NCBI RefSeq assembly: GCF_007828865.1
Contig: NZ_VIVK01000001.1
Location: 4,464,001 to 4,528,000, forward strand
Origin: Kribbella amoyensis
Lineage (GTDB): Bacteria; Actinomycetota; Actinomycetes; Propionibacteriales; Kribbellaceae
Length of the DNA stretch: 64,000 nt
Reading direction: 5' to 3'
Of the stretch, positions 9,549 through 24,571 are shown piece after piece. Both the position numbers and the translations under genes were made by a program. The notes under the pieces were generated by a model. The model saw only the letters and a program-made list of their open reading frames with translations, had not been told where the DNA came from and searched no databases. The number at the start of each line of letters is the position of its first letter. Within the stretch, counting starts at the first letter, position 1.

Positions 9549-10025
9549 GTGACCACTGCCGTCCCCGCGGTCGGCAGTCAGGCACCGGATTTCACCGCCC
9601 GGAACCAGCACGGCGAACAGTTCCGGCTCTCGGACCACCGGGGCCGGCGCGCCGTGGTGCTGGTGTTCTACCCGTACGCGTTCAGCCGTGTCTGTACTAG
9701 CGAGCTGGGCGCGTTGCGGGACCGCCCGGACCTGCTCGCGGCCGCGGACTTCCTGGCCGTCTCGTGCGACCCGATGTTCACGCTCCGCGCGTACGCCGAG
9801 GCCGAGCGGCTCGAGTTCGGCCTGCTGAGCGACTTCTGGCCGCACGGCGCGATCGCGTCCCGGTACGGCGTGTTCGACGCCGACCGGGGGGCCGCGGTGC
9901 GGGGGACGTTCGTGGTGGATCCCGGCGGCGTGATCCGCTGGTCCGTGGTCAATCCGATCGGGGAGGCCCGCAGCGTCGACGACTACGCCGACGCGTTGGC
10001 GAGTCTGGGTCTCGATCTCGGATAG
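9549..10025 (+). CDS. Peroxiredoxin, AhpE-type (alkyl hydroperoxide reductase / thiol-specific antioxidant)
   Basis: A 158-residue thioredoxin-fold peroxidase that reduces hydrogen peroxide and organic hydroperoxides in the cytoplasm. The peroxidatic Cys is Cys49 in FSRVCTSELGALRD; the usual Pro/Thr environment of PxxxTxxC is altered to YPYAFSRVC, as in AhpE-like proteins. A second Cys lies in FLAVSCDPMF, but not at the classical C-terminal resolving position, so a 1-Cys mechanism with mycothiol or mycoredoxin as reductant is likely (family inference). It starts at a GTG 7 bp after the DUF3052 stop and is probably co-translated with it. Confidence 0.92.
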   Translation: MTTAVPAVGSQAPDFTARNQHGEQFRLSDHRGRRAVVLVFYPYAFSRVCTSELGALRDRPDLLAAADFLAVSCDPMFTLRAYAEAERLEFGLLSDFWPHGAIASRYGVFDADRGAAVRGTFVVDPGGVIRWSVVNPIGEARSVDDYADALASLGLDLG

Positions 10026-10045
10026 ACTGCGCGCTCGCGGTCTTC

Positions 10046-10117
10046 GGGTGCTTAGCTCAGCGGTAGAGCGCTTCCCTTACAAGGAAGATGTCGGGGGTTC
10101 GATCCCCTCAGCACCCA
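10046..10117 (+). tRNA. tRNA-Val (anticodon UAC)
   Basis: A 72-nt cloverleaf: acceptor stem GGGTGCT/AGCACCC, D arm with TAGCTCAGCGGTAGAGC, anticodon stem CTTCC/GGAAG with loop CTTACAA giving anticodon TAC, and T arm GGGGGTTCGATCCCC. The 3' CCA is not encoded. It reads valine GUA codons, which are rare in this GC-rich genome. The tRNA ends ~75 bp before a lower-GC gene pair, but no second copy of the tRNA 3' end was found that would mark an integrated element. Confidence 0.97.
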
Positions 10118-10193
10118 CCCGAAGTGTCCTACGGGTTCGGCCGGTCTCGGGCGTACCTGCTGGGGCTGGCCGGTGATCTTGCGACTACGTAGC

Positions 10194-10604
10194 ATGACGA
10201 ACGTGTCGATCAAACGTCTCAGCCCGCCGAGTCTGGTGCAAAGCCCGGCTTTCAGTCATGTCGCTGTCATCCCGCCCGGCGCAACGACAATCTACGTCGG
10301 TGGTCAGAACTCCGTCGATGCCGACGGCGTACTGGTTGGTGAGGGCGATGTCGCGGCACAGTCTGTTCGAACCCTGGAGAACGTCAAGACAGCCCTTGCC
10401 GCTGCGGATGCCACGTTCGCTGATGTTGTGCAGTGGACGGTGCTGTTCGTGGACGGTGTCGATGTTGGTGCGGCATATCGCGCGATCGCTCCTGAACTCG
10501 CCGGCAACGAACCGGCACTTGTTACGGGTGCCACCGTTTCAGCCCTTGGAGTTCCGGGTGCGCTGGTCGAGATCGCCGTGGTCGCCGCCGTGAGCCGCCG
10601 ATGA
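10194..10604 (+). CDS. RidA-family (YjgF/YER057c/UK114) protein
   Basis: About 136 residues. Family features: N-terminal RLSPPSLVQSPAFSHVAVIPPG, the VGGQNSVDADGVLVGEGDVAAQSVRTLENVKTAL region and a C-terminal GALVEIAVVAAV strand. RidA proteins are trimeric enamine/imine deaminases that clear 2-aminoacrylate and similar reactive intermediates; other subfamilies have unknown roles, and the classical substrate-binding Arg is not obvious here, so deaminase activity is not assured. I start at the ATG 7 codons into the open frame (MTNVSIK). The stop overlaps the next gene start by 4 bp (ATGA). Codon use is less GC-biased than in neighbours, suggesting acquisition together with the DUF1697 gene. Confidence 0.85.
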   Translation: MTNVSIKRLSPPSLVQSPAFSHVAVIPPGATTIYVGGQNSVDADGVLVGEGDVAAQSVRTLENVKTALAAADATFADVVQWTVLFVDGVDVGAAYRAIAPELAGNEPALVTGATVSALGVPGALVEIAVVAAVSRR

Positions 10605-11146
10605 CCTCGTACGTTGCCCTGCTTCGAGGGATCAACGTCGGCGGACGAAACCCGGTCGGAATGCCCGCGCTTGTCGAGTGCTTCGAGGAATCCGGGTACC
10701 TGAATGTGCGGACGCATCTACAAAGCGGCAATGTCCTGTTCGATACCGACTTGACGGACGGCCTTGAGCTGGAAGCCAGGCTGGACGGCTTGCTCTCCGA
10801 GAGATTCGGTATCTCGATTCCCACCGTGGTCCGGTCGAAAGATGATCTGGCCGGAACGGTCGCCAATGCTCCTGACGGGCACGACTCCGAAGAGCTGCGG
10901 AGCGAAGTGTTCTTTCTGAAACGACCCCTGACCGTCGAAGCCGCGATGCAACAGATGCCCGAACTGCGAGAGGGCGTGGACTCAATCACTCCCGGTGCTG
11001 ATGTGCTCTATTTCTCGCGTGTAGCAGCACAGGCAAGAAAAACGCGCATCACCCGATTCATGAGCCTGCCTGTCTTCCGACAGATGACTGTACGCAGTTG
11101 GCGCACGACAACACGGCTGCTCGAGCTGTCCACGACCCCAGGTTGA
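10601..11146 (+). CDS. DUF1697 domain protein
   Basis: A 181-residue protein with the DUF1697 signature at its N-terminus (YVALLRGINVGGRNPVGMPAL, then GYLNVRTHLQSGNVLFD) and the later VFFLKRPLT region. The function of this widespread family is unknown. The start codon overlaps the RidA stop (ATGA), indicating translational coupling. GC content falls towards the 3' end, with AT-rich codons such as AGA, AAA, ATT and TTT, unlike the surrounding genome. Taken with the adjacent tRNA-Val this suggests the pair arrived by horizontal transfer. Confidence 0.88.
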   Translation: MTSYVALLRGINVGGRNPVGMPALVECFEESGYLNVRTHLQSGNVLFDTDLTDGLELEARLDGLLSERFGISIPTVVRSKDDLAGTVANAPDGHDSEELRSEVFFLKRPLTVEAAMQQMPELREGVDSITPGADVLYFSRVAAQARKTRITRFMSLPVFRQMTVRSWRTTTRLLELSTTPG

Positions 11147-11658
11147 TTGCCGGCCGATCCAAGACCGACCCCAAGCTGGAACAAGCCTCTCAACCTTGGT
11201 CGCCTGTTCCCGGAGCGCCCCATTGCGTCCGCCCCTTCTCACCGGTCGAGATTCCTTCCCGGTCAGCCGTGTCGTCCACGCCGCCCGCTCGTTGTCCAGG
11301 TGGTGACGGCCGCTGATTTCTTAACCATCGGCTGTCCCGATCGGACTCCTCCGGCCCGGCTCGCGGCTGGTAGGGTTCACGGCTGTCGGTCGGCACGATG
11401 ACGCACCCGGTTCGGACCGGTGCGCGGCGTGGTTCCGTCCGGCGGAACGGGGCCTGTTCTGTCGGTGAGAGCGAGACGGGTGTGCCCTGAGCCCGGCTCC
11501 GTCCAGTTGGGGAGGCACGTGTCCGTGGGTCGCCGACTGACAGGCGTCTCCGAGCTTCGGAAGACCAGCTCTGCCCCCGCCCAGCCCCTCCGCCCCGACC
11601 TCTTCTCGCACTGCAGACTGCCCCTTTCGGCCCCGGCCGTGCTGGTGGTGGGATCGGC
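11147..11658. promoter_or_regulatory. Leader region of the megasynthase with two inverted repeats
   Basis: 512 bp with no convincing gene. Two compact inverted repeats lie ~240 bp before the megasynthase start: CCGGT-TCGG-ACCGG (11407-11420) and GTTCCG-TCCGG-CGGAAC (11432-11448). Their 11-bp separation and symmetry look like operator half-sites. I do not see a confident -35/-10 pair. Short open frames here have no family resemblance. Confidence 0.35.
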
Positions 11659-14600
11659 GTGGTGAGGAACGGCGTGGACCGGCCGGCGATCAGTACCGGA
11701 CCGGCCCTGATGATCCCGGCCGGCTATCCCCGCGACCTGCCCAGCGCGCTGCTGCGGGCGGCGCGGGACTTCGGTGCGGCCGGCGTGGTCGAGATCGGCC
11801 CGGACGGCCGCGAGACCCGGCTGGACTTCCCGACCCTGCTCGAGCTGGCCGCGCGGATCCTGGCCGGCCTGCGGGCGAACGGCGTGCGCGCGGGCGACCC
11901 AGCGGTCGTGCACTGCACCGAGCCGGTCGGCTTCTTCGCCGCGTTCTGGGCCTGTGCGCTGGGCGGGATCAGGCCGTTGCCGATCGCACCGGCTCCCGAG
12001 GGCGACCGGTCCGAGGAGGGCCGCGAGCGGCTCCGCCGGATCACCGAGCTGCTGGGCTGGACGGTCCTGATCGGCCGCCCCGCCGACCTGCCCGACGACC
12101 TCGGCCTGCCCGTCCTCGACCCGGACGCGCTCGCCGGACACGAGCCGACCTCGGAGTACCACCGCCCGGCCGCCGACGACGTCGCGCTGCTGATGACGTC
12201 GTCCGGCACCACCACCGGTACGCCGAAGATCATCCAGCTGACCCACCGCGGCCTGGTCGAGTTCGCCGCCGGGACGCCGGCGATGCTGCCGGTCCGGCCG
12301 GGCCAGGTCACGCTGAACTGGCTGCCGCTGGACCAGAGCGGCGCGTTCCTGCTGTACCACCTGCTGCCCGTCTTCACCGGCTGCACGAACATCCACGTCA
12401 GCCCGGACTGGATCCGGGCCGCCCCGCTGCGCTGGCTCGACCTGATGGACCAGCACCGGGTGAACCACTCCTGGGCGCCGAACTTCGGCTACCGCCTGGT
12501 GACCGGCGCGATCGCGGAGGACCCGGACCGGCACTGGGACCTGTCAGCGTTGCGCAGCCTGGTCAGCGGCGGCGAGCAGATCACGGTGCCGGTGACGAGC
12601 GAGTTCCTCCGGCTGACGAACCGCTTCGGTGTCGTTCCGGAGACCTTCGTCGCGGCCTGGGGGATGACCGAGACCGTCACCGGGATCACGTTCGCCCGGC
12701 CCGGCCTGACGCCGAACGTGCACCGGGTCCGGATCTCCGCGTCCGGTGCCGTCGAATGGGTGGACCAGGCAACGACCCCGGGCAAGGTCGCCGTCGCGCG
12801 CCCAGGCAAGGCGCGGACCGAGGCACCCGGCGTCCTGAGCCTGGTCTCGGTGGGCGCCCCGGCACCGGGGACGACGGTCCGCATCGTCGGCCCGAACGGC
12901 GCGGTCCTGCCCGAAGGCCGCATCGGTCAGCTGCAGATCGCCTCCGCCCGCGTCACCCCGGGGTACCTGGGCAACCCGGACGCCGATCGCGCCGCGTTCC
13001 CCGCGGGCAACTGGCCGGCCCGGAAGTGGCTGGCGACGGGCGACCAGGCGTTCATCACCGGCGGCCAGGTGGTCATCACCGGCCGGGACAGCGACCGCAT
13101 CGTCCTCGACGGCCAGAACCACCTGGCCCACGACCTCGAAGCCCTCGCCGGCGCCGTCCCCGGTACGGTCGACGGCCTCGTCGCGGCCTGTGGTGTCGCC
13201 GACCCCGGGACCGGGTCGGACCGCTTGGTCGTGTTCTACGCCGTCACGCCGGAGTCGCCGGAATCCGTTGCCGAGGGCATTCGCCTGGTGCTGTACGAAC
13301 GTCTCGGACTGACCGCTCAGCCGGTGCCGGTGCCGCGGGAGAACTTCCCGACGACTCCCGGCGGCAAGGTCATCCGGCCGCTGCTCAAGCAGCGACTGAT
13401 CGAAGGCACACTCGACCGTCCGGTGCCTGAGCCGGCCGCGCGCGTCCAGGAGGACGACCCGAGCGAGCGGACCACGGAGCTGCCGGTGGTGCGGCTGGCG
13501 TGGCGTCGTGAGCTGAAGGAATCCATCCCGAAGCCGCCGGAACGCCCGACGTTGGGCGGGAGTCGCGAGGACGAGGAGCCCGACGAGGAAGAGCACTTCT
13601 TCGACGGCAAGGCCTTCTCCACGCCGCCGTCCGAGTCCGACGCGGGTGGTGCCGCGGCCGTGGACGATGCCGAGACGACGCTCCTTCCAGCTGTGAGGTC
13701 CAAGCTTGCCGACGCCCAGGCATCCGACACTGCTGCACCGTCGGACGACGGGACGCAGGAAACCGAAGCAGCTCAGCCGGCCGACGACGCTGAGCCGACT
13801 GACAACGCTGAGCTGACTGACAACGCTGAGCTGACCGACAGCGCTCAGCCGACCGAGAGCGTTGAGCCGACCGAGGGCGCTGGGTCGACCGAGAGCGCTG
13901 GGCCGACGGACAGTGCCGAGCCGACGGACAGTACTCGGCTGACCGACGATGGGCAGTCGGCGGCGCTCGTGGAAGCAGCCGACGAGGTGTCCACTGAAGC
14001 ACCGGCCCCGGACGGCGCGGCGACACTTGAGGCGTCTACCGCATCGGAGCAGGCAGCCTCGGCTCAGCTGGATGACGCCGAAACCACAGTCCTCCCTGCC
14101 ATCAAATCCAAGGCCCGGTCGGCTGCGTCGACGCCGACCACGCAGGAAGCCGACCCGGCTGGACCCGCCGACGCTCGACCGTCCTCCGACGCGAGCGCGC
14201 TCACGCTCGAGCAGAGCGCCGAGCCAGAGGTACCTGCCGACGGTCAGTTTGCGGACGAGGTGACGGCAGCGGAGCCGGCCACGCAGGACACCGAATCAAC
14301 CGCACCGGCGGACGCCGAGCCCTCCGCCGACACGAACGCCCCCGCGCTTGCCGAAGCTGCAGAAGCCGCATCTGCTCCAGGCAACACCGACGATGAGGTG
14401 CCCGGCCTGCCGGAAGCAGTCGCGGACGTACCGGCCGAGGTTCCGACCTCGGCGGAACAGGCCTCTGCAGCTCCGTCCGAACCAACGGAAGCCGTCCCGG
14501 CCGACACCCAGCCACAGGTACTAGCTGACGCTCAGCCGGACGTACCGGCGGTATCGACTGACGCTCAGCCGGACGTACAGGCGGTATCGACTGACGATCA

Positions 14601-17600
14601 GCCGGACGTACCCGCGGACGCTGAGTCGGCGGTATCGACTGACGCTCAGCCGGACGTACCCGCGGACGCCGAGCCGGAGCTGAGCGTCGACGGTCTGTCC
14701 GCAGCAACTACGGACGACCAGCCGGAGGTACTCGCGGATGTCGAGTCGGAGGCGCCGGCCGACGGTCTGCCGACCGCGACCACGGACGCCACGACGGCCG
14801 ATCCCGCAGCCGCGCAAACCACCGCCGACGCCAGCGCAACCCCCGACGTACCAGCCGACGCTCAGCTGCCGGCCGAGTTCGACGATCAGCGCCTTGCCGA
14901 AGCGCCTGGCGTAACTCTCGCCGACTCGGCCGCGTCGACAGACGTCGAACCTCTCGCCGGTAAGGACGAGCTGGCCGCCATCACCACGGACGCGCAGCCC
15001 GTCGGTGCGACGGAAGAGCAGCCAGTTGGTACGGCAGACCAGATCGCCGCCGGTTCCGAGGACGAGTCGTCCGTCGGCGCCACGGAGGCGCTGTTGGCTG
15101 GTTCGTTGGTGGAACAGCCGACCGCCGCGGAGCCACAGCTCGCCGATGCACAGGACGAGCAGAACTCCGGCATGGCCGACGAGCTGGTTGGTCCGGCGGT
15201 AGCCCCGGACGAGAAGTTCGCCGAGGCGCCTGACAAGCAGGACGCCGAGACGACCGACGAGCAGCTCGCTCGCGCGGCGGAAGCGGCAAGCGCTACCGCC
15301 GAGGACCGGACCGCTGGCGCGTCGGACAAGCAGGACGCCGAGACGACCGACGAGCAGCTTGACGGTTCGGCGGATGTGCAGGCGGATGCCGCAGAGGAGC
15401 CGTTTGCCGGTGAGCCTGACGCGCTGGACGCCGGCACGGCTGACGAAGAGCTGGCTGATTCTGCCGAGGCGCGGCCTGTCACTGCGCCCGGGGAGCAGAC
15501 GACCGGTACCGGAGTCGGGCAGCTCGCCGCGTCCGGGGAGCTCGCCCGTACGGCTGGTGAGCAGCTCGTCGGTCTCGAGGAGTTCGCCAGTACGACAGGT
15601 GAGCAGCCCGTCGGTCCGGAGGAGGTCTCCGGTGCAGCGGGTGTGCACCCTGTCGGTCCGGAGGAGCTTGCTGGTGCGGCAGGTGAGCGGCCTGCCGGTG
15701 CCGAGGAGGTCGCCGGTACGGGAGGCGAGCAGGTCGTTGGTTCTGGGGAGCAGCTCGCTGGGACCTCGGACGAGCCGTCTAGCGAGGGCGCTGAGGAAAC
15801 GGGCAGCGCTGAACCTCGTGCCGACCTGCAGGAGAGTGTCCCTGCCGACGACGGGAGCGAGACGGCGTCTGTCGCCGCTCGGGCAGATGATTCCGCTGAT
15901 GAGCAGACGGCATCCGATGCCGATGAGCAGAAGCCCTCCGATGCTGATGAGCAGTCTCCTGTCGTGCGCGGGGACGGAATCACTGACGACGAGTCGGATG
16001 CCGAAGCTGAGGATGTGCAGACTGTTGCACCCGCCGAGGCGCAAGAGGTCGCGGCCAGTGAAGAGCAGTCGGACGACCCGACGGCGGACGGAACCGCTGA
16101 GGCCGAGGCGAGTGCTGCCGATGGCGAGCGAGCTGCCGAGGTTCAGGCGCATGCGTCCGCTGACGCCGCGATCGTTCCGGTATCCGCTGATGCGGTAGCA
16201 GGCGAGTCCGGCGACGCAGATGCGGTGACATCCGACGACGTGCCAGGTGGAGTACCCGCTGAGGCGGATGCGTCTGCCGATGGGCCTGTTGTTCTGGCTG
16301 GCGACAAGCAGGTTGCTTCGCCGACGCGGACGCGGGCGGGTTCGCTTGCTGAGGCGCGCGGTGGTGTACGGACTGACGATGAGTCCGCTGGCACTGCGGA
16401 GGTGCGTCGCGGGCCGGTTGCTGCTGAGTTCGAGCGGGCTGTCGACGGTTCTGCGCGGGCTCCCGAAAGGCGGGCGGAGGGCGGGCAGCCAGTTGCGGCG
16501 GAGTTTGCTGGGGTCAGCGCGCCGGTTGGTACTGCCGCAGTGCGTGAGGTTCCTGAGCGCAACCAGAACAGCCCGGTGGAGCAGGTCGCGCGGGCTGAAG
16601 GCGACGCTGTTGATGACCAGGTTGCCGACGGCGCGGCACCCCTCAAGGATCGTGTTGGCGATGGGCTGGTTGTGGCGCCCGCCGTTGATGAAGCTGCCGT
16701 CGTCGACGAGTTGCCGACCGCCCCCGCGCCCGAGCGGGCCGCCGTCGAGCAACCCGTTGCGACCCGGGCGAAGGCCGTTAGTGCTGCTGGACAAGGCGAT
16801 GCCGTCGCCGTTGTCGGGCTTGCCGCGCGGCTGCCCGGGGCTGATGGGTTGGAGCAGTTCTGGGACAACCTGGTCGGTGGGGTCGAGAGCATTCGCCGGT
16901 TCGCTCCGGATGAGGTTCGGGGCGGCGGTGAGGCCTTCGGGGACGACGAGCTGGTTGCCGTCAGTGGCGCGCTGGATGACGTCGAGTCGTTCGATGCCGC
17001 CTACTTCGGGCTCAGTGCACGCGAGGCCGAGCTGACCGATCCCGCGCAGCGGTTGTTCCTGGAGGTTTGCCAGCAGGCGCTCGAACACGGTGGGTACGCC
17101 GGGCCGAGTGGGCGGATCGGCATCTTCGCCGGATCCGGGATGAACCTGTACGCCCAGCAGAACCAGGCCGGGGAGAACCTCGCCACCCGGGTCGCGTACC
17201 GGCTCGGGCTGACCGGGCCCGCGATCGGCGTCCAGGCCGCGTCGTCCTCGTCGTTGGTTGCCGTGCACCTCGCATGTCAGGCCTTGCGCAGTGGGGACGC
17301 GGATCTCGCGCTCGCCGGTGCCGCCGCTGTCCACGTGCCGCAGGCAACGGCTTATCACGCGACCCCCGAGTCGATCATGTCGCCGACCGGGCAGGTGCGG
17401 GCGTTCGACGCGGGAGCCGACGGGACCGTCGGTGGGAACGGTGTCGCCGCGGTACTGCTCAAGCGGCTCGACCAGGCGATCGCGGACGGGGACACGGTGT
17501 ACGCCGTGATCCGGGGTTCCGCGGTGAGCAACGGGGACGGGCAGGTCGAGCTCGTCGAGCGGGCGCTGGAGAAGGCGGGCGTACCGGCCGAGTCGATCAG

Positions 17601-20600
17601 CTATCTCGAGGCCAACGCGGCCGGGTCGGCTGCCGACGACGTCGCCGAGTTCCGCGCGTTGTCGACCGCATTGCGCAAGCACACCGACAAGGTGGGTTTC
17701 TGCACGATCGGCTCCGTCAAGCCGAACATCGGCCACCTGGACAGCGCCGCCGGGATGGCCGGCCTGATCAAGACCGTGCTGATGCTGCAGCACCGGACCC
17801 TGGTCCCGACGATCAACGTCGACAAGCCGCATCCCGAGCTCCCGTTGGCCGGCGGCCCGCTGACGATCGGGACCGAGGTCCGCGACTGGGAGTCCGGGAC
17901 CCCGTTGCGCGCGGGCGTCAGCGCACTCGATGCCCACGGCACCAGTGCACACGTCATCCTCGAAGAGGCGCCGCGCCAGGTTCGCCGCGGCGACGACGGA
18001 CCGGTGGTCCTTCCGTTGTCGGCGCCGGATTCGCATGGCCTGACCGATCTCGCGGCGTTGTTCGGTACCGATCTCGAGGACGGCACCGGGCATCGCCTGA
18101 TCGACCTCGCGAGTACGGCGGCGCTCGGCCGGCCGGCGCATCGGCATCGGATCGCGGTCACCGGATCGTCGGAGCGCGAGCTGGCCGAGGGACTCGGGAC
18201 GGCGATCGCGTCCGAGGTACCGCGGGGTGGCCCCGGTCCGCTCGGGTACGCGTTCACCGGCCAGGGCGCGGCGCGTCGGGGGATGGCGGCCGCGCTCGCC
18301 TCCCGGTTCCCGGTGTTCCGGGCCGTCCTGGACGAGTGCGACAAGGTGTACGCCGAGGAGTTCGGTGGGAGCCTGCTCGACCTGCTGCTCACCCCCGCCG
18401 GTACCGACGGGGTCTGGCCGACCGAGACGGCGCAGCCCGCGTTGTTCGCGTTCGAGTTGGCGCTGGCGCGGTTGTGGCAGTCGTTCGGGGTGCAGCCCGC
18501 GTTGGTCGTCGGGCACAGCGTGGGCGAGTACGCCGCTCTGTGCGTGGCCGACGCGCTGTCGTTGGCGGACGGCGTCCGGTTGACGGCCAAGCGCGGCGAG
18601 CTGATGCAGCGCGGTACCGTGCCGGGCGCGATGGTCGCGGTCCGCGCCGACGCGGATCGAGTGCGGGAGCTGGCGCAGACGCCAGGCGTTGAGGTTGCTG
18701 CGGGCAACGGTCCGCAGTCGTTCGTCCTGGCTGGGTCCGAGGTGATCGTCGGGCAGCTGGCCGAACAGCTCGACCGGCTCGAGGTCGCGTGGCAGCGGCT
18801 GGACGTGGATCGCGCGTTCCACAGCTCGCTGGTGGACCCGATCCTCGCGGACTTCGCGGCCGTGGTCGCGGGGATCAAGCTGAAGCCGTTGCGGCTGCCG
18901 ATGGTGTCGTCGTGGTCGGGTGAACTGCTGGAGAGCGGCACGATCCTCGACAGCGACTACCTGGTCGGGCAACTGCGCCAGCCGGTGCTCTTCGGCGACG
19001 CGGTCGAGGCGTTGACCGCGGCCGGCTGCCGTCGTTTCCTCGAGCTCGGCCCGGACGCCGTACTCAGCCCGGCCGGCCGCCGGATCGCCCCGAACAGCAC
19101 GTGGATCCCGGCCCAGCGTCTCGGCCAGGACCCCGTCCTCGCGACGATGAACGGCCTCGCCGAGCTGTATCTGCAGGGCACAGAGATCACCTGGTCGAAG
19201 GTGTACCCGGACGGTGGGCGCGTTCCGCTGCCGACGTACCCGTTCCGTCGGATCCACCACCCGGTCGACCCGAGCGCCCGCCCGGTCGCGCGGATCCACC
19301 AGCCGGCCGTGGAGGAGGAGCGCCCGGTCGAGCGGACGTCGGGATCGCTCAAGCGCATCCCGCTGGACCCGCCGCCGGCCAGCGCGAAGGCGGCCGAGCC
19401 GGAGGTCGAGCCGGCCGAGCCGGACAGCTCCCCGTTCGCCATCCCGGCCGACGACCACGACCGGCCGGCCACCGTGCGCCCGACCGTCCCAGAGGTTGCC
19501 GCAGGCACCGAAGTCAAGGTGAAGCTGGTCACCGGCAAGAAGTCCCAACGCGCCGCCGAGGCCATCCAGACCGGAGTCGACGCGAAGGCCGACGTCGACG
19601 CGAAGGCCGGCGTGCCGGGCGAGGCCGCGGCGGTATCCGCGAAGGCGACCCCTGCCGCTGAGGCCGAGAGCCGTCCGTTGCAGGCGGCGGAGCCGGGCGC
19701 CGAGATGGCCGCGGCGGACGTAGCAGCCGAACCTTCCGAGCATGCGGTTGCTGCTGCTGAGGGTGTCAGTGCTGAAGCGCAGGTCGCTGACACGGAGGTT
19801 GTTGACGAAAGGGCCACTGAAGCAGAGGCCACTGAAGCAGAGGGTGCCGAGACCGCTGAAGTACAGGCTGCTGAAGTCCGAGCTGCCCACGCGGAGGTTG
19901 CTGACGCCGGGGACGTTGCGGCGGATGCTCTGGATGCGGCTGAGCGGTACCGGGAGGCGCTGGGCGTTGTCCTGGACCTGACGGGTGAGCAATTGGGGTT
20001 GGATCCCTACGACGTCACCGTGGACCACACCTTCGTCGAGCTCGGCGCGGATTCGCTGTCGATGCTGCGGGTCGTCGAGGTGGTGGCTCAGCGGTTCGAC
20101 GTCGAGGTCGCGGTCAGCGAGTTGTTCGACGAGCTGAAGACCCCGCACCAGCTCGCCTCCGCGGTGGCTTCGCGGACGAACCCGGGCGGCCCCGTCGATC
20201 CCCTCGACCTGCTCACTCCGCCGGCCCCGGTCGAGGAGCCGCAGGACTCGCGGGCCGCGCTCGCGGTTCTCGGTTCCGGGCTCGCCGAACTGGCGGCGAA
20301 GGTCGACGCGGCCGCCGCAGCGACCAGCGAGGCCGAGCTCCCCGGATCGGGCATGGCCGCGCTGATGTCGCAGCAGCTGCGCGTCGCGAGCCAACTGGTC
20401 GAGGGCGTCACCAAGCTGATGCACGAACAGCTCGCCCTCCTGACCGAAGCGACCCCGTTGGCCGCGACCGCCCCGCCCGAAAACCCCAACCAGGCAAAGC
20501 CGGCGAACACCGAGGTCCTCGACGCACTCGACGAAGCCACGGCCACCCAGAAGCAGGACGAAAGACAGGACTCGGCGCCGATCCCCGGCACCGAGCAGGA

Positions 20601-22863
20601 CGCCACCCCCGCACCGGTTCTGCGGACCGACAGCAAGCGGCAGTCTGACCTCGGGTACTGGCAGGCCGCGCTGAGTGGCGCCCAGCCGTTGGTCCTCCCC
20701 ACGGATCGCCCGCGCCCGGCCGGTGGATCCGCGACGGCCGAAGTCGTGCATCATCTCGACGCCGCGCTCGGCGACGCCGTGTTCGCGTTCAGCCGCGATC
20801 GCCGGGTCAGTCCGCTGATGACGATGCTCGCCGCCGTCGGTACCGTGCTCGGCCGGTTCGCCGCCCAGGACGACGTCACCATCGGCGCCGCCGCGCTGCG
20901 GAGCCAGGGCGCCAAGCCGTTGCCGCTCCGCCTCGACCTGTCCGGTGAGCCGGATCTCGGCGAACTGGCGCAGCGCGTCCGCGAGACCACGACGGCCGCG
21001 TTCGACCACGCCGGCGCCGACCTCGCCGTCCTCGAGCAGGATCCGCTGTTCCAGGTGCTCGTCGAGTTCGAGCCGTCGGACGCTGAGCTCGCGGCCGACC
21101 TGGATCTCCGGCTCACGCTCACCCATCAGCCCGGTGGGATCACCTGTACCGCGACCTACCGGACCGGGTTGTTCGACGAGTCGACGATCGTCCGCGTCCT
21201 CGCGTACCTGGAAGCCGTCCTGCGTCGCGCGACCAGCGAGTTCGGTCGCTCGCTGCCCGAGCTGATGGCCCCGATCGGCAACGACCTCGACCTCCTCGGC
21301 GAACTGGAGGGCGAGCCGCCCGCGTCCGGTCCGGTCGGCCGGTCCCGCCGGGACGCCGTCGTGGCCGGTGAACTCAGCGGGCTGCACACGTTGTTCGAGC
21401 AGCAGGTCGCCCGGACGCCGGACGCGATCGCGCTGATCCAGGGCGCCCGCGAGATCACGTACGCCGAGCTCGACCGTCGCGCGAACGCGGTCGCCTGGCA
21501 GCTCGTCGATCTCGGGGTGAAGCCGGGCCAGGTCGTCGCGGTCCGCGTCGGCCGGAGCGCCGAGCTCGTGATCGCAGTCCTCGCCGTGCTCAAGTCCGGC
21601 GCCGCCTACCTCCCGCTCGACCCGGGCGTGCCGGAGTCGCGGTGGGCGTTCATGACCGACGACGCGGCCGCGGTCGCAATGGTCGGGGACGACGCGGCGC
21701 TCGCGGATCGGCTCGGCCTGCGGCTGATCCCGGTCGGCGCGGGCGACGCGGACGCCCGGGCCAAGCAGGCACCGCCGGTCCAGGCCGCCGCGGATGACGT
21801 TGCCTACTGCATCTACACGTCCGGCTCGACCGGCAGCCCGAAGGGTGTCCTCGTCCCGCATCGCGGCCCGGTCAACCTGATCCGGCACTACCTGCGGACC
21901 CGCTCGTCGCTGCGGACGTTGCAGTGGAGCTCGTTCGGGTTCGACGTCCACGTGCAGGAGATGTTCACCGCGCTCGCCTCCGGGTCCGCGCTGGTGCTGA
22001 TCGGCGAGGACGACCGGTACGACCCGGACGCGGTGCTGGCCGCGCTCACGGAGTACTCCGTGCAGCGGTTGTTCATGACGTTCACCCCGCTGACCGCGTT
22101 GCTGGCCACGCTCGAGGAGATGCCGGAGCTGCCCGCGTTGCGCGAGATCGTCGCCGGTGGTGAGGCGATGGTGATGACGCACGGGATCCGCGACTTCCTC
22201 GCCGCGCACCCGCACTGCGTGCTCTACAACGAGTACGGGCCGACCGAGGCGTCCGTGGTCACCACGATCCACCGGGTCGACCCCGACGACGACCGGCCGT
22301 CGATCGGCCGGCCCATCGACGGCGTCGTGGTCCGGTTGCTCGACGAGGCACTCCGGCCGGTCCCGGTCGGCGCGATCGGCGAAATCCACCTCGGCGGCCT
22401 GGCCGTTGCCCACGGCTACGTCGGCCGGCCGGACGAGACGCTGACCGTGTTCGTCGGCGACCCGGGGCATCCGGGCGGCCGGCTGTACCGGACCCGTGAC
22501 CTGGCCCGCTGGCGTCCGGACGGCACGCTGGACTACCTCGGCCGCGTCGACGACCAGGTGAAGATCCGCGGCCACCGGGTCGAGCCGGGCGAGACCGAGC
22601 ACGTCCTCGCCGACCTGCCGGGCGTGACCGACGCGGTCGTGGTCGCGTGTACCGATCCGGGCGGCGAGACCTGCCTGATCGGGTACGTCGTGCTGGCCGA
22701 CGGGGATCCCGCGGTGCTGACCAGGCTGATGATGGAGCTGACCAAGGAGCTGCCCATCTACCTGGTCCCGGCCGACCTGATCCCGTTGGAGGATCTCCCG
22801 CTCGACGCCAGCGGCAAGCTCGACCGCGCCCGCCTCCCCGAACCGGAATGGCTCAAGGACTGA
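11659..22863 (+). CDS. Giant hybrid CAL-PKS-NRPS megasynthase
   Basis: 3,734 residues. Order: AMP-binding CAL/FAAL-like domain (~20-580; TSSGTTTGTPK, WGMTETVTG, TGDQAFI, GGKVIRPL); an acidic repeat-rich disordered linker (~590-1710); ketosynthase (~1713-2120); acyltransferase (~2190-2480; GHSVGEYAA with Ser2287, RAFHS with His2388, the Phe-His form typical of malonyl-CoA); a second low-complexity linker (~2525-2760); ACP (~2765-2845; LGADSLSM, phosphopantetheine site Ser2799); the C-terminal half of a condensation domain (~2995-3205); and an NRPS adenylation domain (~3242-3734; YTSGSTGSPKG, YGPTEAS, final Lys motif ASGKLDRA). The KS lacks its Cys and first His. No KR, second carrier or thioesterase follows. 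It would activate an acid and an amino acid, but how they are joined is unclear. Start GTG 11659; an ATG at 11710 is possible. Confidence 0.93.
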   Translation: MVRNGVDRPAISTGPALMIPAGYPRDLPSALLRAARDFGAAGVVEIGPDGRETRLDFPTLLELAARILAGLRANGVRAGDPAVVHCTEPVGFFAAFWACALGGIRPLPIAPAPEGDRSEEGRERLRRITELLGWTVLIGRPADLPDDLGLPVLDPDALAGHEPTSEYHRPAADDVALLMTSSGTTTGTPKIIQLTHRGLVEFAAGTPAMLPVRPGQVTLNWLPLDQSGAFLLYHLLPVFTGCTNIHVSPDWIRAAPLRWLDLMDQHRVNHSWAPNFGYRLVTGAIAEDPDRHWDLSALRSLVSGGEQITVPVTSEFLRLTNRFGVVPETFVAAWGMTETVTGITFARPGLTPNVHRVRISASGAVEWVDQATTPGKVAVARPGKARTEAPGVLSLVSVGAPAPGTTVRIVGPNGAVLPEGRIGQLQIASARVTPGYLGNPDADRAAFPAGNWPARKWLATGDQAFITGGQVVITGRDSDRIVLDGQNHLAHDLEALAGAVPGTVDGLVAACGVADPGTGSDRLVVFYAVTPESPESVAEGIRLVLYERLGLTAQPVPVPRENFPTTPGGKVIRPLLKQRLIEGTLDRPVPEPAARVQEDDPSERTTELPVVRLAWRRELKESIPKPPERPTLGGSREDEEPDEEEHFFDGKAFSTPPSESDAGGAAAVDDAETTLLPAVRSKLADAQASDTAAPSDDGTQETEAAQPADDAEPTDNAELTDNAELTDSAQPTESVEPTEGAGSTESAGPTDSAEPTDSTRLTDDGQSAALVEAADEVSTEAPAPDGAATLEASTASEQAASAQLDDAETTVLPAIKSKARSAASTPTTQEADPAGPADARPSSDASALTLEQSAEPEVPADGQFADEVTAAEPATQDTESTAPADAEPSADTNAPALAEAAEAASAPGNTDDEVPGLPEAVADVPAEVPTSAEQASAAPSEPTEAVPADTQPQVLADAQPDVPAVSTDAQPDVQAVSTDDQPDVPADAESAVSTDAQPDVPADAEPELSVDGLSAATTDDQPEVLADVESEAPADGLPTATTDATTADPAAAQTTADASATPDVPADAQLPAEFDDQRLAEAPGVTLADSAASTDVEPLAGKDELAAITTDAQPVGATEEQPVGTADQIAAGSEDESSVGATEALLAGSLVEQPTAAEPQLADAQDEQNSGMADELVGPAVAPDEKFAEAPDKQDAETTDEQLARAAEAASATAEDRTAGASDKQDAETTDEQLDGSADVQADAAEEPFAGEPDALDAGTADEELADSAEARPVTAPGEQTTGTGVGQLAASGELARTAGEQLVGLEEFASTTGEQPVGPEEVSGAAGVHPVGPEELAGAAGERPAGAEEVAGTGGEQVVGSGEQLAGTSDEPSSEGAEETGSAEPRADLQESVPADDGSETASVAARADDSADEQTASDADEQKPSDADEQSPVVRGDGITDDESDAEAEDVQTVAPAEAQEVAASEEQSDDPTADGTAEAEASAADGERAAEVQAHASADAAIVPVSADAVAGESGDADAVTSDDVPGGVPAEADASADGPVVLAGDKQVASPTRTRAGSLAEARGGVRTDDESAGTAEVRRGPVAAEFERAVDGSARAPERRAEGGQPVAAEFAGVSAPVGTAAVREVPERNQNSPVEQVARAEGDAVDDQVADGAAPLKDRVGDGLVVAPAVDEAAVVDELPTAPAPERAAVEQPVATRAKAVSAAGQGDAVAVVGLAARLPGADGLEQFWDNLVGGVESIRRFAPDEVRGGGEAFGDDELVAVSGALDDVESFDAAYFGLSAREAELTDPAQRLFLEVCQQALEHGGYAGPSGRIGIFAGSGMNLYAQQNQAGENLATRVAYRLGLTGPAIGVQAASSSSLVAVHLACQALRSGDADLALAGAAAVHVPQATAYHATPESIMSPTGQVRAFDAGADGTVGGNGVAAVLLKRLDQAIADGDTVYAVIRGSAVSNGDGQVELVERALEKAGVPAESISYLEANAAGSAADDVAEFRALSTALRKHTDKVGFCTIGSVKPNIGHLDSAAGMAGLIKTVLMLQHRTLVPTINVDKPHPELPLAGGPLTIGTEVRDWESGTPLRAGVSALDAHGTSAHVILEEAPRQVRRGDDGPVVLPLSAPDSHGLTDLAALFGTDLEDGTGHRLIDLASTAALGRPAHRHRIAVTGSSERELAEGLGTAIASEVPRGGPGPLGYAFTGQGAARRGMAAALASRFPVFRAVLDECDKVYAEEFGGSLLDLLLTPAGTDGVWPTETAQPALFAFELALARLWQSFGVQPALVVGHSVGEYAALCVADALSLADGVRLTAKRGELMQRGTVPGAMVAVRADADRVRELAQTPGVEVAAGNGPQSFVLAGSEVIVGQLAEQLDRLEVAWQRLDVDRAFHSSLVDPILADFAAVVAGIKLKPLRLPMVSSWSGELLESGTILDSDYLVGQLRQPVLFGDAVEALTAAGCRRFLELGPDAVLSPAGRRIAPNSTWIPAQRLGQDPVLATMNGLAELYLQGTEITWSKVYPDGGRVPLPTYPFRRIHHPVDPSARPVARIHQPAVEEERPVERTSGSLKRIPLDPPPASAKAAEPEVEPAEPDSSPFAIPADDHDRPATVRPTVPEVAAGTEVKVKLVTGKKSQRAAEAIQTGVDAKADVDAKAGVPGEAAAVSAKATPAAEAESRPLQAAEPGAEMAAADVAAEPSEHAVAAAEGVSAEAQVADTEVVDERATEAEATEAEGAETAEVQAAEVRAAHAEVADAGDVAADALDAAERYREALGVVLDLTGEQLGLDPYDVTVDHTFVELGADSLSMLRVVEVVAQRFDVEVAVSELFDELKTPHQLASAVASRTNPGGPVDPLDLLTPPAPVEEPQDSRAALAVLGSGLAELAAKVDAAAAATSEAELPGSGMAALMSQQLRVASQLVEGVTKLMHEQLALLTEATPLAATAPPENPNQAKPANTEVLDALDEATATQKQDERQDSAPIPGTEQDATPAPVLRTDSKRQSDLGYWQAALSGAQPLVLPTDRPRPAGGSATAEVVHHLDAALGDAVFAFSRDRRVSPLMTMLAAVGTVLGRFAAQDDVTIGAAALRSQGAKPLPLRLDLSGEPDLGELAQRVRETTTAAFDHAGADLAVLEQDPLFQVLVEFEPSDAELAADLDLRLTLTHQPGGITCTATYRTGLFDESTIVRVLAYLEAVLRRATSEFGRSLPELMAPIGNDLDLLGELEGEPPASGPVGRSRRDAVVAGELSGLHTLFEQQVARTPDAIALIQGAREITYAELDRRANAVAWQLVDLGVKPGQVVAVRVGRSAELVIAVLAVLKSGAAYLPLDPGVPESRWAFMTDDAAAVAMVGDDAALADRLGLRLIPVGAGDADARAKQAPPVQAAADDVAYCIYTSGSTGSPKGVLVPHRGPVNLIRHYLRTRSSLRTLQWSSFGFDVHVQEMFTALASGSALVLIGEDDRYDPDAVLAALTEYSVQRLFMTFTPLTALLATLEEMPELPALREIVAGGEAMVMTHGIRDFLAAHPHCVLYNEYGPTEASVVTTIHRVDPDDDRPSIGRPIDGVVVRLLDEALRPVPVGAIGEIHLGGLAVAHGYVGRPDETLTVFVGDPGHPGGRLYRTRDLARWRPDGTLDYLGRVDDQVKIRGHRVEPGETEHVLADLPGVTDAVVVACTDPGGETCLIGYVVLADGDPAVLTRLMMELTKELPIYLVPADLIPLEDLPLDASGKLDRARLPEPEWLKD
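13430..16795 (+). repeat. Low-complexity acidic repeat region inside the megasynthase gene
   Basis: Encodes ~1,120 residues dominated by Ala, Asp, Glu, Thr, Ser, Pro, Gln and Val with almost no aromatics. Several degenerate repeat families follow one another: six-residue AELTDN/AQPTES units (~13,790-13,950), eleven-residue AQPDVPAVSTD units (~14,530-14,670), DKQDAETTDEQL units (~15,235-15,365) and EEVAGTGGEQ-like units (~15,560-15,760). The frame stays intact throughout, and both repeat phase and composition read as one disordered protein segment. Confidence 0.85.
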
Positions 22864-23602: not shown

Positions 23603-24571
23603 GTGTCCCACCGTAACGCGCGTACGACGTTTCATGGCCGGTTGCTGATCGTGCAGCGGCACCGGGCCGGGTGGGCGCAGGCGCATATCGCGAAGGCGAT
23701 GGGTGTGTCGCGCAAGTGTGTGAAGACCTGGCTCGATCGGTACGAGGCTGAAGGCGAGGCGGGTCTGCGGGACCGGTCGTCGCGGCCGCATCGGTGTCCG
23801 CGGCGTACGCCGGCCGAGGTCGAGCAGCGGGTCCTGGACGCGCGGGAGCGGTTGCGGCTCGGTCCGGAACCGATCGCGGCCCAGACCGGGGTACCGGCCC
23901 GGACGGTGTCGCGGATCCTGCGCCGCCACCGGGTGCCGCATCTGGCCGTGTGTGACCCGATCACCGGTCAGGTGATCCGGGCCTCCAAGACCACCGCGAT
24001 CAGGTACGAGCGGGACCGGCCAGGCGAACTGGTCCACATGGACGTGAAGAAGATCGGCCGGATCCCCGACGGCGGCGGCTGGCGCGCACACGGCCGCGCC
24101 AGCGCCTCGACCCGCCGCGACCGCAGCACCCGGGTCGGGTTCGACTACGTGCACTCACTCGTCGACGACCACTCCCGGCTGGCCTACTCAGAGATCCTGC
24201 CCGACGAGAAAGGCCCCACCTGCGCCGGCTTCCTGACCCGCGCCATCGCCTTCTTCGCCGCGCACGGCATCACCCGGATCGAACGGTTGATGACCGACAA
24301 CGCCTGGTCCTACCGCTGGTCACTGCGCGAGGTCTGCGCCACCCACGCCATCACCCAGAAATTCATCAAACCCCACTGCCCCTGGCAGAACGGGAAGGTC
24401 GAGCGCCTCAACCGGACCCTGCAAACAGAGTGGGCCTACCGGCAGGTCTTCACCACCAACACCGAACGCACCGCCGCACTTGCACCCTGGCTCGAGTCCT
24501 ACAACACTCAACGCCCACACACCGCACTCGGAGGACACCCACCCATCACCCGACTGCAACCAACCTCATGA
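23603..24571 (+). CDS. IS481-family transposase
   Basis: About 322 residues. An N-terminal helix-turn-helix region (GWAQAHIAKAMGVSRKCVKTWLDRY) is followed by a second HTH-like segment and an RNase H-fold DDE integrase core (~residues 115-320). The acidic triad is in VHMDVKKIGRI, LMTDNAWSY and NGKVERLNRTLQTEW. I start at the GTG of VSHRNARTTF because it has GGAGG at the right distance; the open frame extends 15 codons further upstream through the regulatory hairpin. No frameshift or stop, so it should be active. Confidence 0.95.
   Translation: MSHRNARTTFHGRLLIVQRHRAGWAQAHIAKAMGVSRKCVKTWLDRYEAEGEAGLRDRSSRPHRCPRRTPAEVEQRVLDARERLRLGPEPIAAQTGVPARTVSRILRRHRVPHLAVCDPITGQVIRASKTTAIRYERDRPGELVHMDVKKIGRIPDGGGWRAHGRASASTRRDRSTRVGFDYVHSLVDDHSRLAYSEILPDEKGPTCAGFLTRAIAFFAAHGITRIERLMTDNAWSYRWSLREVCATHAITQKFIKPHCPWQNGKVERLNRTLQTEWAYRQVFTTNTERTAALAPWLESYNTQRPHTALGGHPPITRLQPTS

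Follow-up and report, generated by a model that had tools for sequence, protein, structure and literature searches.

Genes for assembly lines are mined as product makers, and domesticated pseudoenzymes are a known kind of protein. To our knowledge there is no earlier example of a domesticated PKS-NRPS pseudo-megasynthase, and the gene described here would, if our reading of it is true, be the first. In the KS0 domain Art14KS4 of a trans-AT PKS, the available part of the source describes Asn in place of the first catalytic His (PMC8302727). The QutR, GaaX, and TanX type of repressor is, in the portion of the source available to us, related to the last three AROM domains and thought to be catalytically inactive while still binding ligands (PMC10512348). 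Groups of similar NRPS-PKS-I-trans-AT clusters have been reported among 38 Kribbella strains, and the accessible sections of that report do not discuss the megasynthase gene (PMC9962454). A limited search of the open-access literature, covering parts of the papers, retrieved none on a conserved dead PKS/NRPS. Here we describe a megasynthase gene of Kribbella amoyensis and its orthologs across the genus.

Results

The gene lies at 11659-22863 (+) of the window (the whole stretch of 64,000 nucleotides analyzed, C1:4464001-4528000 of an 8.1 Mb genome) and encodes CAL, linker, dead KS, AT, linker, ACP, half-C, and A, in that order. The unbroken frame of 3,734 aa reported in the initial annotation was seen again in the open reading frame check, and the conserved N-terminal context backs either the GTG start codon chosen there or the GTG immediately after it. 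An open frame of 2,693 aa on the opposite strand (14521-22602, -) most likely just reflects GC-rich codon usage. Pfam detects AMP-binding (two stretches), KS, AT, one PP-binding, a partial Condensation, and AMP-binding_C, and the 3,734-aa protein yielded no second carrier, KR, or TE, which agrees with the earlier description of a CAL without an adjoining carrier and of a single ACP. No PPTase gene is nearby either, in agreement with the initial annotation; the two matches in the genome lie away from the megasynthase gene, at C1:4135536 and C1:512874.

Orthologs were detected in 38 of 38 Kribbella genomes by a search with the ACP-to-A region, and a CAL search of 391 genomes of the order matched the same 38 and none of the 353 outside Kribbella at E ≤ 1e-90. 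Scanning named genomes with an AT alignment gave 34 loci, 22 at 88 to 93% identity and the other 12 at 37 to 52%. A record titled Streptomyces sp. SID13031 (L103) holds a Kribbella-type gene with an AT identity of 92%, and its title is probably a misnomer. CAL to A is read in one complete frame in 34 of the 38 genomes (K. amoyensis and 33 others; 3,232 to 4,229 aa stop to stop); the copies in G001 and G036 are cut by contig ends, and frame breaks occur only in those of G008 (L069) and G017 (L050). Either true mutation or sequencing error may have caused these two breaks. A second CAL copy in another genome (G011:C1:2418829-2420544), in a 1,389-aa frame and with a score equal to that of the main copy, reflects a duplication or an assembly artifact. 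The initial annotation had asked whether orthologs keep the stop position: the same short end, with a stop 0 to 2 aa past the A match, is found in 35 of 37 other loci (a measure that leaves out G017, whose A sits in a separate ORF), and G031 runs 820 aa further.

The surroundings of the gene are also kept. A ROK gene lies downstream in 36 of 37 other loci, and peroxiredoxin and/or DUF3052 genes lie upstream in 32 of 37, the remainder being two loci without upstream sequence and three with other genes in the stretch fetched. Just downstream of the megasynthase, the window carries an IS481-type transposase gene (23603-24571, +) with rve and LZ_Tnp_IS481 matches; most other loci pass directly to the ROK gene there. 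FAS II genes including AcpP and FabF lie directly upstream of the window, and FabD is part of this set.

The KS fold (16798..17988, +; Pfam, genus alignment, and solved PKS) lacks the catalytic Cys of a working hybrid PKS-NRPS. Ser1862 (17242-17244, +) occupies its position in K. amoyensis, and the column reads Trp 27, Ser 10, Gly 1, and Cys 0 of 38, as counted, like the other residues, from the genus alignment. At the first catalytic His stands Asn1986 (17614-17616, +); the 38 rows show Asn 28, His 5, Ser 3, and Asp 2, a replacement in 33 of 38, and the second His is kept in 37. Equivalent positions of KS, A, and CAL are seen in alignments to solved chains. A KSQ loading decarboxylase, which has Gln for Cys and keeps both His, was considered and rejected: Ser, Trp, or Gly, and never Gln, is present at the Cys position.

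The condensation domain is represented by its C-terminal half (residues 2992-3235; 20632..21363, +; Pfam), matching only profile positions 189 to 435 of 456. The profile part before position 189, in which we place HHxxxDG, is missing; this motif, expected of the C domain in a hybrid PKS-NRPS, is present in G031 and in the intact relatives described below, and a full C upstream of A occurs in G031 only. The sole ACP (19921..20193, +) bears Ser2799 (20053-20055, +), the predicted site of phosphopantetheine attachment, in K. amoyensis. In the genus the same column holds Ser 11, Pro 23, Ala 3, and Val 1, so that the carrier Ser is lost in 27 of 38. A first ACP with Ser is present only in G031, G013, G037, and G017; the remaining 32 of the 36 loci spanning the region gave no match to it, and two loci do not reach that far. 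Searches of the linkers and flanks of 37 loci (blastp at E 0.01, tblastn at E 0.001) returned no match to the monooxygenase, the N-terminal half of C, or the PCP of the intact synthases; the last C gave two weak matches, in the K. amoyensis window and in G037, both falling on the kept half-C. The domain set is incoherent as an assembly line, as initially proposed, and the line is, beyond that claim, catalytically gutted, with the KS Cys and half of C lost.

The AT domain (18226..19278, +) keeps its Ser-His pair and Arg throughout: Ser2287 (18517-18519), Arg2312, which we take to be the carboxylate-binding residue, and His2388 show no change in any of the 38. The CAL (acyl-adenylating) domain (residues 20-600; 11716..13458, +; Pfam and solved relatives) has 6ulw/6ulx and McyG 4r0m as its closest solved relatives. 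Lys570 is kept in 35 of 36 CAL rows (L068 and L081 begin inside KS at contig ends), and the one exception is the out-of-frame row of G017 (L050), whose cells are partly artifacts and which was dropped for the P-loop comparison. In that comparison with 13 intact synthases, the P-loop (residues 180-190; 12196..12228, +) is longer by one residue in 15 of 35 rows, K. amoyensis included. The A domain (residues 3240-3734; 21376..22860, +; Pfam and alignment) has Arg for Gly in A7 in 38 of 38 against the 13 intact synthases (residue 3613; 22495-22497, +), reading YRTRD versus YRTGD in a solved relative. A10 is Lys in 14 and Arg in 24 of the 38, with Lys3720 (22816-22818, +) kept in K. amoyensis. The residues D3429, V3430, Q3433, V3498, and E3525, which by GrsA numbering presumably line the A pocket, are invariant in 38 of 38. 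The view of the CAL, AT, ACP, and A motifs as intact thus holds fully for AT and, in K. amoyensis, for the ACP Ser, but not for the CAL with its P-loop insertion or for the A with its A7 change.

Columns invariant in the 13 intact synthases are likewise invariant, with the same residue, in the genus at 95 of 120 in CAL, 47 of 56 in AT, and 100 of 124 in A, and at 93 of 180 in KS, 18 of 54 in C, and 3 of 12 in ACP. Positions frozen here and variable in the intact synthases number 102 in CAL, 90 in AT, 56 in A, 16 in KS, 10 in ACP, and 5 in C, counts that are biased by setting one genus against a wider set, the same-genome dN/dS comparison below being fairer.

Between the domains, short motifs are conserved in linkers of varying length (statistics from 33 or 34 loci). 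After CAL, residues 603-634 (ERTTELPVVRLAWRRELKESI...RPTLG; 13465..13560, +) include TTELP, present in 29 of 33 linker sets; a putative phospho-Thr docking role was considered for this TTxLP motif. A long, disordered-looking linker rich in Ala, Glu, Pro, and Asp follows (13561..16797, +), recognized by composition and lengths, in which the ancestral first ACP is missing, and the low-complexity stretch directly after CAL comes to about 1,100 aa. KRIPLDP follows AT in 28 of 33 sets, and LMSQQLR follows the ACP in 33 of 33, within a conserved helix pair (LGSGLAELAAKVD ... MAALMSQQLRVA ... QLALL; 20224..20448, +). The lengths between linker motifs vary widely, with 725 to 1,472 aa from late CAL to KS. 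The post-ACP stretch forms two helices in a low-confidence fold model (mean pLDDT 52.8) of the post-ACP/half-C region, built from 18 rows, namely 17 of 22 named ortholog stretches and the window, and its confidence is too low to support any conclusion about the half-C.

Upstream of the gene, a block at 11318..11545 (+), present as a single copy in the genome, is conserved in 36 aligned genomes, with G031 matching the final portion alone. It belongs to no Rfam family, and Rfam on 10000-11900 gives only a tRNA at its cut-off. A structured RNA was considered for the block and is not claimed, since there is almost no covariation (covariation term -0.44 kcal/mol; 4 of 32 pairs changed on both sides, in 28 of 36 rows). 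No sigma-70-like promoter was found in 10100-11800. The block is possibly a promoter plus leader, and it fits an expressed gene while being no proof of expression.

Selection was estimated by pairwise Nei-Gojobori dN/dS, with L084 left out of the genus, clade, and eight-genome sets; the pairs are not independent. Over the genus, leaving out pairs with dS outside 0.05 to 1, the medians were 0.088 for AT, 0.121 for A, 0.164 for CAL, 0.186 for KS, 0.321 for half-C, and 0.361 for ACP. In the 24 species of one clade without the carrier Ser, for which, as for a second clade of three species, only pairs with dS under 0.05 or undefined were left out, the medians were 0.055 for AT, 0.085 for CAL (22 species), 0.087 for A, 0.143 for KS, 0.182 for ACP, and 0.253 for half-C, and the highest values for any pair were 0.131 for A, 0.120 for AT, and 0.459 for ACP. 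The three-species clade gave 0.090 for AT, 0.091 for KS, 0.111 for A, 0.152 for ACP, 0.186 for half-C, and 0.200 for CAL (three pairs). Five neighboring genes range from 0.140 to 0.239. By these values, the AT, A, and CAL folds are under the strongest selection, the carrier and half-C under the weakest.

In the eight genomes that hold both the gutted gene and the intact relative, AT shows 89% identity and 0.117 in the gutted gene versus 58% and 0.292 in the intact one, A shows 86% and 0.157 versus 70% and 0.262, and CAL shows 85% and 0.170 (seven genomes) versus 70% and 0.284, a comparison in which horizontal exchange of the intact relative is possible. There is no such difference for KS (0.185 gutted versus 0.174 intact), and the ACP is less constrained in the gutted gene (0.377 versus 0.327). 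Without the divergent G028 copy of the intact relative, the values, gutted versus intact, are 0.117 versus 0.256 for AT, 0.158 versus 0.258 for A, 0.170 versus 0.243 for CAL, 0.188 versus 0.159 for KS, and 0.373 versus 0.263 for ACP.

The megasynthase had been called lone, which is right locally, but the K. amoyensis genome also encodes an intact relative at C1:3638998-3649395 (L095:4984-15492 (-) in region G000:C1:3634000-3653999). Pfam and NCBIfam assign it two AMP-binding, a KS, an AT, three PP-binding, and two Condensation domains together with a MupA-type luciferase-like monooxygenase (LLM), and it carries the motifs VQTACSTS, EAHGTG, HHIVFDS, LGADS, and LGGHS. A 402-aa ORF, membrane-transporter-like by eye, adjoins it on the same strand. 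The intact relative is present in 8 of 38 Kribbella genomes, in 7 of these with ten of ten domains, as judged against those of the K. amoyensis copy, in the order CAL-ACP-KS-AT-ACP-LLM-C-A-PCP-C; the copy in G028 is without the last C. Similar synthase genes occur in Streptomyces, Saccharothrix, and Wenjunlia (L124-L128).

An intermediate is preserved in G031. Its first ACP has Ser; in its KS, Gly replaces the Cys and Tyr replaces the second His; and a second ACP with Ser is followed by a full C with HHLVFDS, A, PCP, a linker, and a further C; no monooxygenase match was obtained. In a tree built from AT and A by a quick method (46 rows) and rooted on the intact relatives, G031 branches first; the deep forks among the other 37 are open, and L084 sits on a long branch. 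On this tree, A10 requires one change, the KS residue four, and the carrier state (Ser or not) two, and the carrier Ser was accordingly lost twice, in the 24-species clade and again in the three-species clade, the latter having Val, Pro, or Ala at this position. The megasynthase is derived by loss from the complete synthase type. An ortholog with a further C-terminal carrier, named in the initial annotation as a sign of recent truncation, does exist in G031 (PCP-linker-C), but the truncation is old, not recent, because the shorter end is common to the other loci.

Discussion

We consider it probable, from comparison of sequences, that the gene encodes a domesticated megasynthase that works as a ligand-binding scaffold rather than an assembly line and whose AT probably still functions. 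Within Kribbella, a synthase of the type CAL-ACP-KS-AT-ACP-monooxygenase-C-A-PCP-C shed, step by step, the parts that condense and carry: the KS Cys and the monooxygenase everywhere (38 of 38), the N-terminal half of C together with the terminal PCP-C everywhere except in G031, the first ACP, to which 32 of 36 covering loci gave no match, the Ser of the remaining ACP in 27 of 38 by two losses, and the A10 Lys in 24 of 38 by one change, with the CAL, AT, and A folds staying under strong purifying selection. With these residues lost, no chain would be built on the protein itself. The KS fold and the conserved helices may hold a dimer, the AT may still form an acyl enzyme from a CoA thioester, and CAL and A may still bind acid and ATP ligands without needing to pass them on, long flexible linkers presumably separating the domains. 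The whole would then be an acyl-metabolite-binding scaffold or sensor, as has been suggested for the inactive fungal repressors that resemble AROM. That it is a bacterial sensor or scaffold of several hundred kDa, keeping the AT, CAL, and A folds and discarding condensation and carriers as a counterpart of those repressors, is a tentative extension that we hold at rather less than even chances. A role as a regulator is a guess, since neither a DNA-binding domain nor a partner gene was detected.

Several observations count against the scaffold reading. The ACP Ser, the A10 Lys, and CAL Lys570 persist in K. amoyensis, where some loading chemistry may persist with them, and three genomes besides G031 keep two carriers with Ser. 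The copies in G008 and G017 have frame breaks, the constraint on KS and ACP does not exceed that in the intact relative and is slightly weaker once G028 is set aside, and the CAL value of 0.200 in the three-species clade is a further result against the reading. Moreover, the AT alone has an untouched catalytic set, which equally fits a trans-acting enzyme: the AT, perhaps with the CAL, would load a carrier on another protein, for instance AcpP of FAS II or the intact relative, and the other domains would be ballast or serve docking. Such an enzyme, the main rival reading, which we think somewhat unlikely, would account for the AT being the most conserved domain, with catalytic residues invariant in all 38 genomes, and would find AcpP and FabF encoded directly upstream of the window. 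However, only 8 of the 38 genomes hold the intact relative, and A and CAL are strongly conserved too, beyond what AT action explains. Given FabD in the FAS II set, plain malonyl loading would be redundant, although another acyl group or acceptor could be served.

The initial annotation had suggested that both acyl and aminoacyl groups are delivered to the one ACP. A line of this kind acting in cis, in which CAL, AT, and A would all use flexible tethers to load the one ACP and a product would be made, appears very improbable to us. K. amoyensis does have the ACP Ser, the AT residues, CAL Lys570, and the A10 Lys for it, but its CAL P-loop carries the insertion, the half-C is without its first half, and A7 is changed in 38 of 38; as a general account the idea fails, because 27 of 38 orthologs are without the carrier Ser and none of the 38 has the KS Cys, though for K. 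amoyensis taken alone it keeps a slim chance. We give scarcely any credence to slow decay of a former biosynthetic gene with no present function, to which the stepwise domain loss, the frame breaks in G008 and G017, and the faster change of ACP and half-C might point. The broken frames and relaxed selection of a simple pseudogene are not what is seen: 34 of 38 copies are complete in one frame, two more are cut only by contig ends, median dN/dS in the carrier-less species is 0.055 to 0.253 by domain, retention is universal in the genus, and the upstream block is conserved. The term degenerate remnant is apt for the origin, by loss from a complete synthase, but this is not simple decay, in view of retention in 38 of 38, a stop 0 to 2 aa after A in 35 of 37, and median dN/dS of 0.055 to 0.087 for AT, CAL, and A in the 24-species carrier-less clade. 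Catalytic residues lost from folds under purifying selection describe a domesticated pseudoenzyme of the QutR kind, though the AT residues are all kept, and retention under selection across Kribbella suggests that the protein now has a different job.

Genome mining would probably flag the megasynthase as a hybrid PKS/NRPS cluster in every Kribbella genome, although 37 of 38 lack a functional condensing domain and 27 of 38 lack a carrier Ser. The stepwise loss is documented by living intermediates, and the AT, CAL, and A folds evolve more slowly than their counterparts in the intact relative that the same cells carry, which raises a testable question: what these three folds do for the cell once the assembly line is gone.

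Among known systems, the CAL-ACP-KS-AT-ACP-LLM-C-A-PCP-C synthases of actinomycetes share the domain order and have homologous domains, the intact Kribbella copies being identical to the window protein at 41 to 45% in CAL, 53 to 56% in KS, 41 to 45% in AT, and 47 to 50% in A; compared with these intact hybrid synthases, the window gene is without the first ACP, the monooxygenase, half of C, the PCP, the last C, and the KS Cys. Its CAL differs from those of 6ulw/6ulx and McyG 4r0m in having no directly following carrier and, in 15 of 35 rows, in the P-loop insertion. The KS resembles KS0 domains in the Asn that replaces the first catalytic His in 28 of 38, but KS0 keeps the Cys when the first His is replaced, whereas here the Cys is also gone in 38 of 38, which makes transthiolation through Cys impossible. 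The QutR/GaaX/TanX repressors are fungal, belong to an unrelated sequence family, and are paired with an activator gene, whereas the analysis here turned up no partner gene; the likeness lies in a gene derived from a multi-domain enzyme.
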